Shown: one piece after another, positions 37,484 through 45,379 of the stretch
How positions within the stretch are numbered: the stretch's first letter is position 1
Layout of the letters: every line of letters starts with the position of its first letter
Assembly (NCBI GenBank): GCA_028714015.1
Contig: JAQTNG010000003.1
Coordinates: 1-45,379, forward strand
Origin: Elusimicrobiota bacterium
Lineage (GTDB): Bacteria > Elusimicrobiota > Elusimicrobia > UBA1565 > UBA9628
Direction of reading: 5' to 3'
DNA length: 45,379 nt
The notes under the pieces: generated by a model
Seen by the model: only the letters and a program-made list of their open reading frames with translations
Databases searched by the model: none
What the model was told of the DNA's origin: nothing
Position numbers and translations under genes: made by a program

Positions 37484-37984
37484 TCATGCCTCGCCGTCCG
37501 CCAGCCGACGGAACTCCGCGAACAGCTCGTGGATCGCGGCCGCGTGCTCGCCCTGCTCCTTCTCGAGTCCGAGCAGGGCCTTCTCCGCTTTCTCGATGCG
37601 CGCGGCAAGGCCCTCGCCGCTCATCAACACGTCGCTCATCTTCACGAACGCGCGCATGATGGCGATCTTCACTTCGACGCCCCGCGGGCTGCGCAGCACG
37701 GTCGAAAGCATCGAGATTCCTTCCCGCGTGAATGCGAGGGGCCAATACTTGCGATATCGACCGCGACCGGCTCTCTCTAAGATCACAATTTGTGATCTTA
37801 GAGATAACGTTTCTTCGCGAGTCATGCGGAACATAAAATCCGCTGGAAAACTACTGAGGTTTCGTTGAACCTGTTGATTGAGTTGATGTGTGGGCACGCC
37901 GTATACGCGCGCGAGATCTTCGTCCAACATGACCCTTTGACCGCGAACGACATGAATGAGGGGGACGACCTTGGCGATATCCAT
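37484..37984 (-). CDS. ORF6N domain-containing protein
   Basis: IHVVRGQRVMLDEDLARVYGVPTHQLNQQVQRNLSSFPADFMFRMTREE...LRSQIVILERAGRGRYRKYWPLAFTREGISMLSTVLRSPR. Confidence 0.9.
   Translation of the reverse strand: MDIAKVVPLIHVVRGQRVMLDEDLARVYGVPTHQLNQQVQRNLSSFPADFMFRMTREETLSLRSQIVILERAGRGRYRKYWPLAFTREGISMLSTVLRSPRGVEVKIAIMRAFVKMSDVLMSGEGLAARIEKAEKALLGLEKEQGEHAAAIHELFAEFRRLADGEA
37774..37804. repeat. ORF6N-associated palindrome P1, inside the ORF6N CDS
   Basis: tctctaagatcacaa-t-ttgtgatcttagaga, perfect 15+1+15. Confidence 0.95.
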
Positions 37985-38021
37985 GTCTTCATACGATTGA
38001 GGGGGGCGATTTGTTCCATAA

Positions 38022-38048
38022 CTTGAAGTGCCAAATTGGTACTTCAAG
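38022..38048. repeat. ORF6N-associated palindrome P2
   Basis: cttgaagtgccaa-a-ttggtacttcaag, 13+1+13 with one mismatch. Confidence 0.9.
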
Positions 38049-38079
38049 ATCTTAAGGTTGCAATTTGCAACCTTAAGAT
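38049..38079. repeat. ORF6N-associated palindrome P3, abutting P2
   Basis: atcttaaggttgcaa-t-ttgcaaccttaagat, perfect 15+1+15. Confidence 0.95.
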
Positions 38080-38111
38080 TTTGGGTAAAACATAAATTTT
38101 GATTGGCTTAT

Positions 38112-38138
38112 TTTGAGGTCACAGTTTGTGACCTCAAA
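38112..38138. repeat. ORF6N-associated palindrome P4
   Basis: tttgaggtcacag-t-ttgtgacctcaaa, one mismatch next to the centre. Confidence 0.9.
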
Positions 38139-38165
38139 CTTGAGGTCGCAAATTGCGACCTCAAG
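38139..38165. repeat. ORF6N-associated palindrome P5, abutting P4
   Basis: cttgaggtcgcaa-a-ttgcgacctcaag, perfect 13+1+13. Confidence 0.95.
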
Positions 38166-38201
38166 TCGAAGCCGAGTTTTCACGCCTGTTTACACACCAT
38201 G

Positions 38202-38228
38202 TCTAAGGTGCCAATTTGGCACCTTAGA
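38202..38228. repeat. ORF6N-associated palindrome P6
   Basis: tctaaggtgccaa-t-ttggcaccttaga, perfect 13+1+13. Confidence 0.95.
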
Positions 38229-38256
38229 ACCGCCCTAGGATTTGTATTCTAGTCGC

Positions 38257-40047
38257 ATGATCCTACTCCTCCTTTCCGCCCTCCTCGCCGTGCCGTCCCA
38301 CGCCGCCGCCCCCACCGTCAAGGACGCCCAGGCCTTCATGGACGGCGCCGAGAAATCCCTCGACGCGCTCGGCCGCCGCTCGGCCTTCTCGTCCTGGATC
38401 CAGCAGACCTACATCAACTACTCCTCCGAGTGGCTGGCGAGCGACGCCGACCAGAGCTACTCCGCCGAGGCCGCCCGCCTCGCCCACGCCGCGCGCAAGT
38501 ACGACAAGCTCGACCTGCCCGCCGACCTCAAGCGCAAATTCCTCCTTCTCAAGCTCACCGTGACGTCGCCGGCCCCGCCCGATCCCGCCGAGCAGAAAGA
38601 GCTCTCCGACACCAAGGTCTGGCTCGAGGGCACCTACGGCAAGGGCAAGTACTGCCCCGCCTCCACGACGACCTGCCTGACGCTCGACGACATGGAGGAC
38701 ATCCTCAAGGACTCCCGCGATCCCAAGCGCCTGGCGGAGGTCTGGACCGGCTGGCGCACGATCTCGGTCCCGATGCGGCCGCGCTATCAGCGCTTCGCCG
38801 AGCTCTCCAACAAGGGCGCGCGCGACCTCGGCTTCAAGGACACCGCCGACCTCTGGCGCAGCGGCTACGACATGACCCCGGATCAGTTCTCCGCCGAGCT
38901 CGACCGAACCTGGCTGCAGATGAAGCCGCTCTACGAGGCCCGCCACGCCTACGTGCGCCGCCGCCTGCAGGACAAATACGGCAAAGACGTCATCGGCGCC
39001 GACGGCCTCATCCCGCAGCAGCTCACCGGCAACATGTGGGGCCAGTCCTGGGAGAACATCTACGACCTCGCCGCCCCGCCGAAGACGAAGCCCGCCTACG
39101 ACCTGACCGAGCGGCTCAAGGCGAACAAGTACGACGAGCTCAAGATGGTCAAGACCGGCGAGGCCTTCTTCACCTCGCTGGGCTTCCCAGCGCTTCCGTC
39201 GACGTTCTGGGAGCGGTCCATGTTCACGCGCCCGCGCGACCGCGAGGTCGTCTGCCACGCCTCGGCCTGGGACGTCGAGAACGGCCAGGACCTCCGTATT
39301 AAAATGTGCATCAAGATCAACTCCGAGGACTTCGTGACCATACACCACGAACTCGGCCACAACTTCTACCAGCGCGCGTATGAAAAACAGCCGTACTTCT
39401 TCCGCGGCTCGGCCAACGACGGCTTCCACGAGGCCTTGGGCGACACCATCGCCCTGTCGGTCACGCCGGAGTACCTCAAGACCATCGGCCTCATCGACTC
39501 GGTCCCCGGGCCGGAGGGGGACATCGATCTCCTCCTGACCAAGGCGCTCGAGAAGGTCGCGTTCATGCCGTTCGGGCTGCTCGTCGACAAGTGGCGCTGG
39601 GACGTCTTCACGGGCAAGACCAAGCCCGAGGACTACAACAAGGCGTGGTGGGCGCTCGTGCAGAAGTATCAGGGCATGAAGCCGCCGGCGCCTCGCTCCG
39701 AGAACGACTTCGACCCGGGTGCTAAGTACCACATCCCGGGCAACACGCCGTACGCGCGCTACTTCCTGGCCAACGTCTACCAGTTCCAGTTCTACCGCGC
39801 GCTGTGCAAGCAGAGCGGGTACACGGGGCCGCTGCACCGGTGCTCCTACTACGGCGACAAGGCCGCCGGCAAGAGCCTGGGCGACATGATGGCGATGGGC
39901 AGCAGCAAGCCGTGGCCCGACGCCCTCGAGGCGGTGACGGGGCAGCGTCAGCTCGACGCGACGGCCATCCTCGAGTACTTCGCGCCGCTCAAGGCCTGGC
40001 TCGACGAGCAGAACAAGGGGCAGGCGACGGGGTGGAAGGCGGAATAA
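38257..40047 (+). CDS. M2 family peptidyl-dipeptidase (ACE-like), secreted
   Basis: Signal peptide MILLLLSALLAVPSHA; VTIHHELGHNFYQRAYEKQPYFFRGSANDGFHEALGD zinc site. Confidence 0.92.
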   Translation: MILLLLSALLAVPSHAAAPTVKDAQAFMDGAEKSLDALGRRSAFSSWIQQTYINYSSEWLASDADQSYSAEAARLAHAARKYDKLDLPADLKRKFLLLKLTVTSPAPPDPAEQKELSDTKVWLEGTYGKGKYCPASTTTCLTLDDMEDILKDSRDPKRLAEVWTGWRTISVPMRPRYQRFAELSNKGARDLGFKDTADLWRSGYDMTPDQFSAELDRTWLQMKPLYEARHAYVRRRLQDKYGKDVIGADGLIPQQLTGNMWGQSWENIYDLAAPPKTKPAYDLTERLKANKYDELKMVKTGEAFFTSLGFPALPSTFWERSMFTRPRDREVVCHASAWDVENGQDLRIKMCIKINSEDFVTIHHELGHNFYQRAYEKQPYFFRGSANDGFHEALGDTIALSVTPEYLKTIGLIDSVPGPEGDIDLLLTKALEKVAFMPFGLLVDKWRWDVFTGKTKPEDYNKAWWALVQKYQGMKPPAPRSENDFDPGAKYHIPGNTPYARYFLANVYQFQFYRALCKQSGYTGPLHRCSYYGDKAAGKSLGDMMAMGSSKPWPDALEAVTGQRQLDATAILEYFAPLKAWLDEQNKGQATGWKAE

Positions 40048-42661: not shown

Positions 42662-43276
42662 TTAGTCGGCATAGAAATCGCTATTGTCGACATTTGTTGA
42701 GTGGACTTCAGCGATTTCCCGATCCGAATCCAAAGTAACATCGAACTTAAAAGGATAGGAATCGTGGATTTCGGGATCACCATCGGTTTCACGGTCAGAA
42801 CCGTATTGTAGACTGACCCCAAGCAACCCCTCGCCTATTACGTGCGCGCCTTTATCACCCCACGAAACGGATGAGATATTAATGTCAGTAACCTCCTCCA
42901 ACCTCGTGTGTGTCGAAACCTCATCAAGCTCTGAAGGGAAATTATTGTGAAAATGTTCTTCAAGCTGGGCTTCTAAGCCAACTATTTCGATTTGGCGGTC
43001 AGTGGGGGGAGTTATTAGTACTAGGCGCATTTGTCGTGCAGGATCTTTTTTCACATACTCATGTATGCGGCGAACATGTTTGTCATCGTTCGCGCCGGCA
43101 CCGTAGATTTTAAACTCAAAAATTATCTCCTCTGCCTCGTTCTTTGCAACAAGGTCAAAGGTTTGTCCTCCAACCCGAAGCTCGCGTTCAATCTTATACC
43201 CTTTGGCAGAGAAATCGCGTTCAACCCGTTCCATGGCATCTTCGATTAAATAGCGGCTCATTGCGCGTGTCGTCAT
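42662..43276 (-). CDS. PD-(D/E)XK nuclease-like protein with C-terminal beta-rich domain
   Basis: QTFDLVAKNEAEEIIFEFKIYG (D...ExK); C-terminal LQYGSDRETDGDPEIHDSYPFKFDVTL. Confidence 0.6.
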   Translation of the reverse strand: MTTRAMSRYLIEDAMERVERDFSAKGYKIERELRVGGQTFDLVAKNEAEEIIFEFKIYGAGANDDKHVRRIHEYVKKDPARQMRLVLITPPTDRQIEIVGLEAQLEEHFHNNFPSELDEVSTHTRLEEVTDINISSVSWGDKGAHVIGEGLLGVSLQYGSDRETDGDPEIHDSYPFKFDVTLDSDREIAEVHSTNVDNSDFYAD

Positions 43277-43813
43277 CTAGCACCCCACGGGATAGCCAAC
43301 GTCTACGAGATTCCCAATTTCGACGTAGATCGTGTGGTCGTTTGTACCAATAGAATTATAAAAATCGACGAGAACATCTGAGTCCATCTTTGTTGTGTCA
43401 ATCATGTGGAGAGGCGCGCTCCCGATATTCTGGCTTCCGGCCGTTCTTAACTTAACAAGAAAGTCATCAGTAAACGCGAGTGTGCGCAGTGAATCTAGCG
43501 TAGGCTTGCTTAGGTTGTCAGGATCCCTGCGCTCTTCCTTTCTGTAAAAATAATAAACCCGGCAATAAAGCGAATGTGTAAGGGGCGCCGAAGCTGCGTA
43601 TCGACTTTTAAATGCCGCATCGACGGCGGCAATGTAGGCAGCTTTTGTGGGGGATCTCGACGCGGTTTTATTGTGAGAGCCTGGTCGTGCCGACACAATG
43701 AAACTGAAGATAGGCGCTTTCGCTACCGCGGGAGTTGCCGTCGCGGTAAGTATCGATGGGGCTGTGCGTATTTTTTGGGAAAATAAACGCACCCATAGAT
43801 CGTGCAAGTTCAT
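43277..43813 (-). CDS. RusA-like Holliday-junction resolvase family protein (start uncertain)
   Basis: RRDPDNLSKPTLDSLRTLAFTDDFLVKL matches the RusA DxDN...K...DxL...DD signature. Confidence 0.6.
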   Translation of the reverse strand: MNLHDLWVRLFSQKIRTAPSILTATATPAVAKAPIFSFIVSARPGSHNKTASRSPTKAAYIAAVDAAFKSRYAASAPLTHSLYCRVYYFYRKEERRDPDNLSKPTLDSLRTLAFTDDFLVKLRTAGSQNIGSAPLHMIDTTKMDSDVLVDFYNSIGTNDHTIYVEIGNLVDVGYPVGC

Positions 43814-43869
43814 GCGCTCATGTTATGCGGCTGAATATGGCAATGGCGACTGCATTTTGTTGAGTCGGA

Positions 43870-45379
43870 TCACTCTTTTTCAAAGCCCTGGCTCGTAAAC
43901 TTCAAAGTTTGACTATTTTCAGTGACCGTTCTTACAACCTGATCCGGCGCGCCGGTCGGAATATGAGCTTCGATCTCGAGTGTGACCCGCACTTCGGCTC
44001 CGACGAGAGCTGTTAGGTGTGAGATCACTTCATCCGCGATGCGGCTCGCGTCGCGCCCGACGCGTGCTGAGTCCAAGATTACCGTGCCGTGGAAGCGGCT
44101 CAGCTGTACCGCGGTCGACGCAGGATGGGTATTTCCCGGCCCGTTCCCGCCGGCAGGCGCGGCAAATCCACCGGCGCCGCTAGCTGTGTGCTCCGTGGCT
44201 CCTGCGCCCTTCGGGGGAATTTCGGCATCCAATTGTCTGCGGGCGACGTCCGGCTTCACCAGTAGCGCAGAGCTTTCCGGCGACAAACTTGCCGTCTGTC
44301 CGCCCCGCAAGCCGCGATATCGCCCCGTTGCTTCGTCTAGGCTGTCGGCAAACGCGAACGTGTCGGTCTGCCACGTGCGCAGCACTAAGCCGTCGTGTAT
44401 TGCATGGAGCAATACTTCGGAGCCGGCCACCCGCGGCAGATATAGATACCGCGCGAAGTCCTCTACGAGCTGCTTCACCGCGACATGCTCTCCGCGCCAC
44501 AAAGGGACGTCGTCGAGGTTCTTGCGCAGGATGGTTGAACCGAAGCTCGTCAGGAGCAGCTCGTCGCTGCGAAGCTTCTTGCTCGCGCGCGCGGCCAGCC
44601 CGTCGCTTCCGGTGATGCGGACAGCCTGCCATGTGAGGGGCGACTGCGGCGTCTTCTGCTCCGGCACCAGCACCCATTGGTAGGTCTCGGGCAGTCGCGC
44701 CGTGACGGCGCCGTCCGCGGCCTTTTGCTGCGTCTCCGCCTGGCGCACTTGATGAGGGTCCAGGTTGAGGACAGCCTTTTCGGCCAGAATGGACGACCAC
44801 GCGAGGTGCTTGCGCAGCGCGTCTTCGAGGTCCTGCAGGCGCACACGATCCGCAGCAAGGAAAACGAGCGTGTTGCGATAGAGGCGCGGGGTGTTGCCGC
44901 GCGTCTCCAGGATCGCCTTGGCGGCCTTCTCCGCGGCATTCCCGCTCTCTTTGCTGTACGGATGCTCCGCCGGCAGCACCACTAGGCGCGTGTCAAGATC
45001 ATCCGGCACGTCCGAGCCTGAGCGCGGAAGCGGATGGATTCGTGAGAAGTCCCCCATGTTCCGCAGGTCGGCGCGGAGCCGAGCGTCCAGCTCGGCCGCG
45101 ACTTTATCCGGGTCTCGCTTGAGCTGATCGGCGCGGTCGTCGGCCAGCTTAGTCACGGTGGGCTGGGTCGCGTACCAGGTGCGGGGGCCGTCCTGATAGA
45201 GATAGGTTGCCGCCGCGGCGAGACGCCGTAGCGCGTCACCGAAGACGGCCGCCGATTCTCCCGGCATAACGCAGCCGAGCATCACGCGCCGGTCCTCGAG
45301 GCCGCGGTGCGCCGCCGCGCCTGTCGGTGCTGAGCCGAGGTAGATAGTCCTCGCTACACGACGCGTCGCATGAAACCGG
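43870..45379 (-). CDS. DUF499-type ATPase, C-terminal part; 5' end outside the window
   Basis: Frame open to the right edge (RVARTIYLGSAPTGAAAHRGLEDRRVMLGCVMPGE); C-terminal GTVILDSARVGRDASRIADEVISHLTALVGAEVRVTLEIEAHIP. Confidence 0.75.
   Translation of the reverse strand, partial: RFHATRRVARTIYLGSAPTGAAAHRGLEDRRVMLGCVMPGESAAVFGDALRRLAAAATYLYQDGPRTWYATQPTVTKLADDRADQLKRDPDKVAAELDARLRADLRNMGDFSRIHPLPRSGSDVPDDLDTRLVVLPAEHPYSKESGNAAEKAAKAILETRGNTPRLYRNTLVFLAADRVRLQDLEDALRKHLAWSSILAEKAVLNLDPHQVRQAETQQKAADGAVTARLPETYQWVLVPEQKTPQSPLTWQAVRITGSDGLAARASKKLRSDELLLTSFGSTILRKNLDDVPLWRGEHVAVKQLVEDFARYLYLPRVAGSEVLLHAIHDGLVLRTWQTDTFAFADSLDEATGRYRGLRGGQTASLSPESSALLVKPDVARRQLDAEIPPKGAGATEHTASGAGGFAAPAGGNGPGNTHPASTAVQLSRFHGTVILDSARVGRDASRIADEVISHLTALVGAEVRVTLEIEAHIPTGAPDQVVRTVTENSQTLKFTSQGFEKE

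Follow-up and report, generated by a model that had tools for sequence, protein, structure and literature searches.

Among described palindromic DNAs, Rickettsia palindromic elements (RPEs) are about 150 bp long and interrupt numerous genes that are unrelated to one another, within a single genus (PMC10969869), and the coding palindromes of nematomorph mitochondrial genes comprise repeats of up to 284 bp in a few species (PMC6649704). REP elements are described as palindromic repeats of 20–40 bp (PMC3733652). Inverted repeats can also be shaped by template switching, for which two marks have been published: (i) homogenization of the arms, and (ii) inversion of the spacer (PMC8604942). Here, we analyze six palindromes, P1 to P6, in and beside an ORF6N gene in a 45,379-nucleotide stretch of an Elusimicrobiota genome (hereafter, the window). 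The phenomenon is larger than first noted: the ORF6N palindrome is family-wide and occurs across bacterial phyla, and the six copies in the window are one instance of it.

Six palindromes at an Elusimicrobiota ORF6N locus

The gene that contains P1 (Table 1) matches the profile of the ORF6N family, PF10543, with an E-value of 5e-27 (94.4 bits vs. a cut-off of 27.8), and it is the one ORF6N gene found in the 4.05-Mb assembly. Its protein matches a PHROG anti-repressor (6e-18) and, at the level of a profile match, PADLOC PDC-S05 (E 1.2e-46). PDC-S05 is a single-gene phage-defence candidate that two papers were found to mention, and ORF6N genes may thus enter surveys as defence candidates. In an AlphaFold2 model, the two ten-residue blocks covering the P1-encoded stretch have pLDDT values of 57 and 69, against more than 90 around them, and this stretch sits between a helix and a strand. 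The model predicts, with low confidence, a loose loop here, which would tolerate altered or additional residues; the long helices that it places C-terminal to the ORF6N domain would suit a dimer. Neither sequence search nor fold search returned a solved relative of the protein; given that the model had no significant fold match, we draw no inference on DNA contacts.

Table 1. Features of the ORF6N locus (positions in the window).
Feature	Position	Strand	Remarks
ORF6N gene	37484–37984	-	ATG start at 37984; upstream, the frame stays open as far as a TTG at 38047
P1, in-gene palindrome TCTCTAAGATCACAA-A-TTGTGATCTTAGAGA	37774–37804	-	Arms of 15, 0 mismatches; encodes LRSQIVIL
Intergenic region, ORF6N gene to divergent Peptidase_M2 gene	37985–38256		P2–P6 occupy most of it
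P2, free-standing copy	38022–38048		One mismatched pair; position kept in G191 and G220
P3, free-standing copy	38051–38077 (core; pairing extends 38045–38083)		A/T centre flips between orthologues
P4, free-standing copy	38112–38138		Sole mismatch is the centre; gene-strand loop AAC
P5, free-standing copy	38138–38166		Abuts P4; in G220 compensated, GAGGT..ACCTC to GAAGT..ACTTC
P6, free-standing copy	38202–38228		Closest of the copies to the divergent peptidase gene; decayed in G220

The original prediction, made from the window alone, had described six 27-nt palindromes with a single A/T centre. All six lie where it placed them and are the top six single-centre palindromes of the 45-kb window by strength; their variable NN pairs and encoded peptides also read as originally written. 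At up to three mismatches, the consensus said to be shared by all six matches five of them in the window (0 matches in 100 shuffles), and a search of the complete 4.05-Mb assembly gives those five places only (reversed control, 0); the exact consensus is found in P3 and P5 only, and P1, as the more divergent member (TCTAAGAT...ATCTTAGA), departs from it at four positions. Two pairs of copies had been thought to abut, which is true of P4/P5, while the 27-mers of P2 and P3 are 2 nt apart. The peptide common to P2–P6 is no sign of coding, as any copy of the palindrome reads so once the register is chosen.

A scan of positions 37700–38450 found no sigma-70-like promoter or terminator pattern. The divergent neighbor that shares the palindrome-filled intergenic region (38257–40044, plus strand) encodes a bacterial angiotensin-converting-enzyme-like peptidase (Peptidase_M2, E 1.6e-220). 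The right end of the window (42662–45285, minus strand) resembles a defence island, with an HmaC-type AAA+ ATPase (E 1.9e-122) and, beside it, a nuclease matching Aga_Nuclease and a pPIWI-associating nuclease family.

Distribution in ORF6N and related genes

Searching the ORF6N loci of other genomes for the consensus, a check proposed at the outset, was productive. Within the phylum, 44 of the 296 genomes contain the exact consensus (reversed control, zero), which is also present in many other bacterial phyla, in at least 120 stretches when one genome per species is counted. Among the 132 distinct matches listed, 95 fall within an ORF6N domain and two in other parts of an ORF with that domain; 20 are next to such an ORF, and 15 are at loci without a visible ORF6N. 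Exact-consensus matches in ORF6N-less viral contigs were set aside: they are mostly intergenic, often 18–20 bp past a stop codon, and are probably transcription terminators. Seven viral contigs (L186, L188, L193, L195, L199, L204, and L213) have an intergenic consensus-fitting palindrome with NN = CT/AG, often at about 20 bp past a stop codon and probably a terminator.

The loci of this 132-match set were selected via the palindrome, hence a second sampling by ORF6N protein family, covering three phyla and a mixed set and yielding 119 full-length genes. This sample is nearly, not wholly, independent of the palindrome: part of the mixed set comes from genomes reached via the palindrome, and some places come from both lists. 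All 11 pairs are formed in 62 of the 119 genes (52%), versus 0.04% under synonymous shuffling, and at least 10 of the 11 in 103 (87%), versus 0.7% under synonymous shuffling and 0.7% of 1095 windows in other ORFs. The codon-level excess of palindromicity that the original prediction had asked about is found. The position of the palindrome is near-constant, mostly 30–39 nt ahead of the sequence encoding the YxPYAFTEQG block. ORF6N genes are characterized by this in-gene palindrome of about 25–27 bp, whose place relative to the codons is fixed. Two observations named beforehand as damaging to an ORF6N association did not materialize: rather than homologues lacking the palindrome, nearly every gene of the main ORF6N clade has it, and, rather than being scattered genome-wide, the palindrome is confined to the ORF6N locus in the assembly.

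Palindromes of other sequence occur in distant ORF6N genes and in related families. Two distant ORF6N genes (L319 and L326) have a different core, TCCGAATTTCGGA. Among Bro-N domains, 17 of 36 reach 9/11 pairs, 16 of those at profile positions 40–50, with letters that are gene-specific. DinD-type Bro-N genes have the form GACCATTTTGNNG-nngt-CNNCAAAATGGTC, with a 4-nt centre, and dinD of E. coli K-12 has a 13-of-14 version, so the palindrome is testable there. The dinD N-terminal domain exists as two E. coli alleles (L466–L473), whose borders are sharp and fall near codons 11 and 82; one allele retains the palindrome, and the second, common allele has a decayed one. Several Rha-like genes have GCATTTGAAATGC-type sites, and a Rha-like gene (L378) has two distinct in-gene palindromes, one of the TCGCGTTTCAAACGCGA type and, about 40 nt away, one of the CCGCGTTTCAAACGCGG type. 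The negative controls gave 0/26 at 10 or more pairs for KilA-N genes and 0/15 for classical pRha genes. Two P22-like KilA-N genes (L450 and L455) have weaker in-gene palindromes of 9/11 pairs, unlike other KilA-N genes. From their comparable position, we infer that the Bro-N, Rha-like, and ORF6N sites may be homologous across families.

Constraint on DNA and its possible causes

Arm covariation was measured over 137 in-gene sites. Pairing reaches 97% at k = 4, 97% at k = 5, and 99% at k = 10, versus 33%, 50%, and 62%, respectively, expected with independent arms; at k = 1, pairing is at chance level, so the central 3 nt of the palindrome are free. Letter identity is conserved at k = 2, 3, and 6 in both of the reading frames in which the one core is found (LRSQIVTS vs. 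LVTNCDRF), and the core letters are also retained in non-coding copies. A tree constructed with the relevant residues left out shows at least 36 changes of the symmetric NN class and four of the reading frame. Peptide residues 3 and 6 co-vary (S/V, S/A, C/G, F/G, and F/E) because the DNA arms do. At synonymous third bases, a partner T is met by A 245 times and by G four times, and a partner C by G 302 times and by A 15 times, while usage elsewhere is roughly even. G-T mismatches (7/428) are rarer than A-C mismatches (23/482; p = 0.009). Since synonymous third bases follow pairing and G-T is not in excess over A-C, the constraint is in the DNA and not in the sense mRNA. A peptide constraint alone was ruled out by the synonymous null, the wobble test, and the second reading frame. 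The double constraint first proposed, on palindrome and peptide together, thus holds for P1, with the palindrome as the stronger of the two, as judged from synonymous pairing, residues 3 and 6, and the second frame. Over about nine codons, the ORF6N gene is constrained more as DNA than as protein.

The same data make it very unlikely that a hairpin in the sense mRNA controls the stability or translation of the ORF6N message. The message does have a 12-bp stem with a 3-nt loop, and its 5' leader could contain the upstream copies. However, the tolerance of G-U in covarying stems that marks a structured RNA is missing, with G-U no better tolerated than A-C and the trend reversed, and an Rfam search gave no family at the gathering threshold. 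Sub-threshold Rfam matches of microRNA type were discarded, being driven by the hairpin shape.

We tentatively favor, with a probability of about 0.4, a recognition element that acts at the DNA level, with arms homogenized by template switching; it would probably be an operator that lies within the gene and binds the ORF6N protein made from it. A binding site of the ORF6N protein had been one of the two readings in the original prediction, and it fits much of the evidence. The palindrome would be read symmetrically as duplex DNA, most likely by a dimer of the ORF6N protein, which would regulate its own gene from the intragenic site and, where present (as in this window), from upstream sites; selection would keep the spacing and the letters of the core. 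The half-sites of ORF6N copies, whether coding or non-coding, have strictly odd spacings, with even spacings at background, as expected of a dimer on duplex DNA. The dyad symmetry and constant spacing, in or near the gene, that characterize autogenous operators are both seen. Since the ORF6N protein probably binds DNA, a constraint on duplex symmetry in its gene, with a conserved core and constant spacing, is best explained by recognition by that protein or its relatives.

The free-standing copies fit this reading: where they occur upstream, they are close to the gene, with 52 of 67 within 300 bp of the ORF6N domain start. Several points count against a recognition element. An upstream copy at a distance of up to 300 bp is present in only 16 of 162 sampled ORF6N genes, and the free-standing copies are no closer to the resident in-gene copy than to that of a random gene (24 of 68 vs. 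21.7 expected; p = 0.29). A sharply allele-specific operator, in which external copies match the copy of the resident gene, is therefore unlikely and was unsupported when tested. Odd spacing is also not universal beyond ORF6N, given the 4-nt centre of DinD-type Bro-N genes.

In the main rival reading, the palindrome would function as a DNA hairpin or cruciform, recognized by its structure and core letters, which might serve gene movement or recombination. Integron attC sites and the promoter hairpins of phage N4 are examples of single-stranded DNA recognized by structure. Such a form would account for the retention of pairing where letter identity drifts, for the loop-like behavior of the central 3 nt, and for the coexistence at one locus of sites with differing arms, all still paired; Bro-N, DinD-type, and Rha-like genes, too, have hairpins of other sequences, with loops of 3–5 nt, at a comparable place. 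We still consider it rather unlikely, as ORF6N half-sites keep strictly odd spacings in non-coding copies too, in which a loop of 4 nt would fold equally well, mismatches in free-standing copies (12 G-T and 7 A-C by hand count) show no strand preference, and no accompanying transposase or recombinase was identified. A mobile cassette, an inert palindrome, and the mRNA hairpin discussed above follow in decreasing likelihood.

How the palindrome changes over time bears on both the favored operator and the inert palindrome. In 50 independent pairs of related genes, the arm pairs show 53 compensated double changes, where independence predicts about four, together with 29 single and 11 uncompensated double changes. 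The 3-nt centre is exactly inverted in 14 of the 50 pairs, against A/T transversions upstream of 3.8% per site, a comparison in which mostly single A/T centre changes are scored as inversions and I/F codons may favor such changes. At three orthologous loci within one genus, the order of P1–P6 is identical; P1 and P5 show compensated changes, and three of the six centres (P2, P3, and P5) have flipped. In the G191 orthologue of P1, AGGT..ACCT replaces AGAT..ATCT, a compensated change that turns Ile into Thr. Arm homogenization and spacer inversion between close relatives are thus both found in the ORF6N palindrome. Under the operator reading, template switching between the arms at replication would overwrite one arm with the sequence of the other and invert the centre, and would thereby account for paired change in letters not read by the protein. 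ORF6N matches that break off close to the palindrome, seen by eye, were dropped as a hint of recombination because profile-end effects confound them.

Template switching could also suffice without any function, by keeping a palindrome perfect once present while the loop tolerates the peptide changes. The inversions and homogenized arms of near pairs, the loose loop of the AlphaFold2 model, and precedents in yeast coding genes and RNA genes (PMC8604942, PMC8794818) fit such an account. It is improbable nonetheless: the palindrome is nearly universal across phyla and keeps its letters at k = 2, 3, and 6 in either frame, which is more than a mutational habit by itself would be expected to maintain, and other genes do not show the feature.

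An alternative origin for the copies is a family of mobile palindromic cassettes that prefers ORF6N loci, a gene-specific cousin of RPEs. Each free-standing copy is a discrete unit of ~27 bp with no ORF6N sequence on either side, upstream copies are drawn from the same pool of variants as in-gene copies elsewhere, and some ORF6N proteins (L012 and L317) contain extra in-frame copies. This origin is doubtful, in view of the lack of genome-wide scatter in the 4.05-Mb assembly and an in-gene position that is fixed across phyla. Orthologous loci retain the same copies in the same order, so movement would be rare, and neither target duplication nor a mobilizing enzyme was seen.

A more far-reaching form of the operator reading is that ORF6N/Bro-N-type regulators carry their own DNA address in the reading frame. 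The palindrome would be recognized by the protein that it helps encode, in a variable-loop segment, such that one template-switch mutation would alter target and loop together. We regard this as speculative and unlikely; if true, it would amount to a self-updating protein–DNA specificity across bacteria and phages, E. coli DinD included. The palindrome provides an experimental handle on the targets of phage-type anti-repressors and of the candidate defence family PDC-S05, and ORF6N palindromes offer a natural system in which to measure template switching.

Comparison with known systems

No counterpart was found for a conserved DNA symmetry in the coding sequence of one family that is kept in two frames while its letters drift, and the open literature searched gave no report of such a palindrome. 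RPEs resemble it as palindromic DNA within reading frames that is translated in frame. The RPE reading included in the original prediction is unsupported as stated, however: in place of elements of about 150 bp in unrelated genes, the ORF6N unit is ~27 bp long, belongs to one gene family at one fixed position, and is spread across many phyla, being restricted to the ORF6N locus in this assembly and ORF6N-bound in other genomes. Nematomorph coding palindromes share the joint preservation of inverted repeats and protein coding, with compensated arms, but are long and mitochondrial, whereas the ORF6N palindrome is short and holds one position in a single family of bacterial genes.

Inverted repeats made by template switching share arm homogenization, spacer inversion, and amino-acid changes in coding DNA (PMC8604942); they are described as sporadic and as occurring in diverse genes, while the ORF6N palindrome is permanent and family-wide, with conserved core letters. 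REP elements are short palindromic repeats of a size similar to the ORF6N copies. They are high-copy and extragenic, in contrast to six copies at one locus in this genome and a mainly intragenic location, the universal copy being intragenic. Autogenous operators within coding sequence are similar in that dyad-symmetric DNA lies both inside and next to a gene whose product probably binds DNA. We know of no operator that is the hallmark of a family across phyla while its sequence drifts. If the function is merely that of an intragenic operator, the ORF6N palindrome would be a known kind of element in an altered form.
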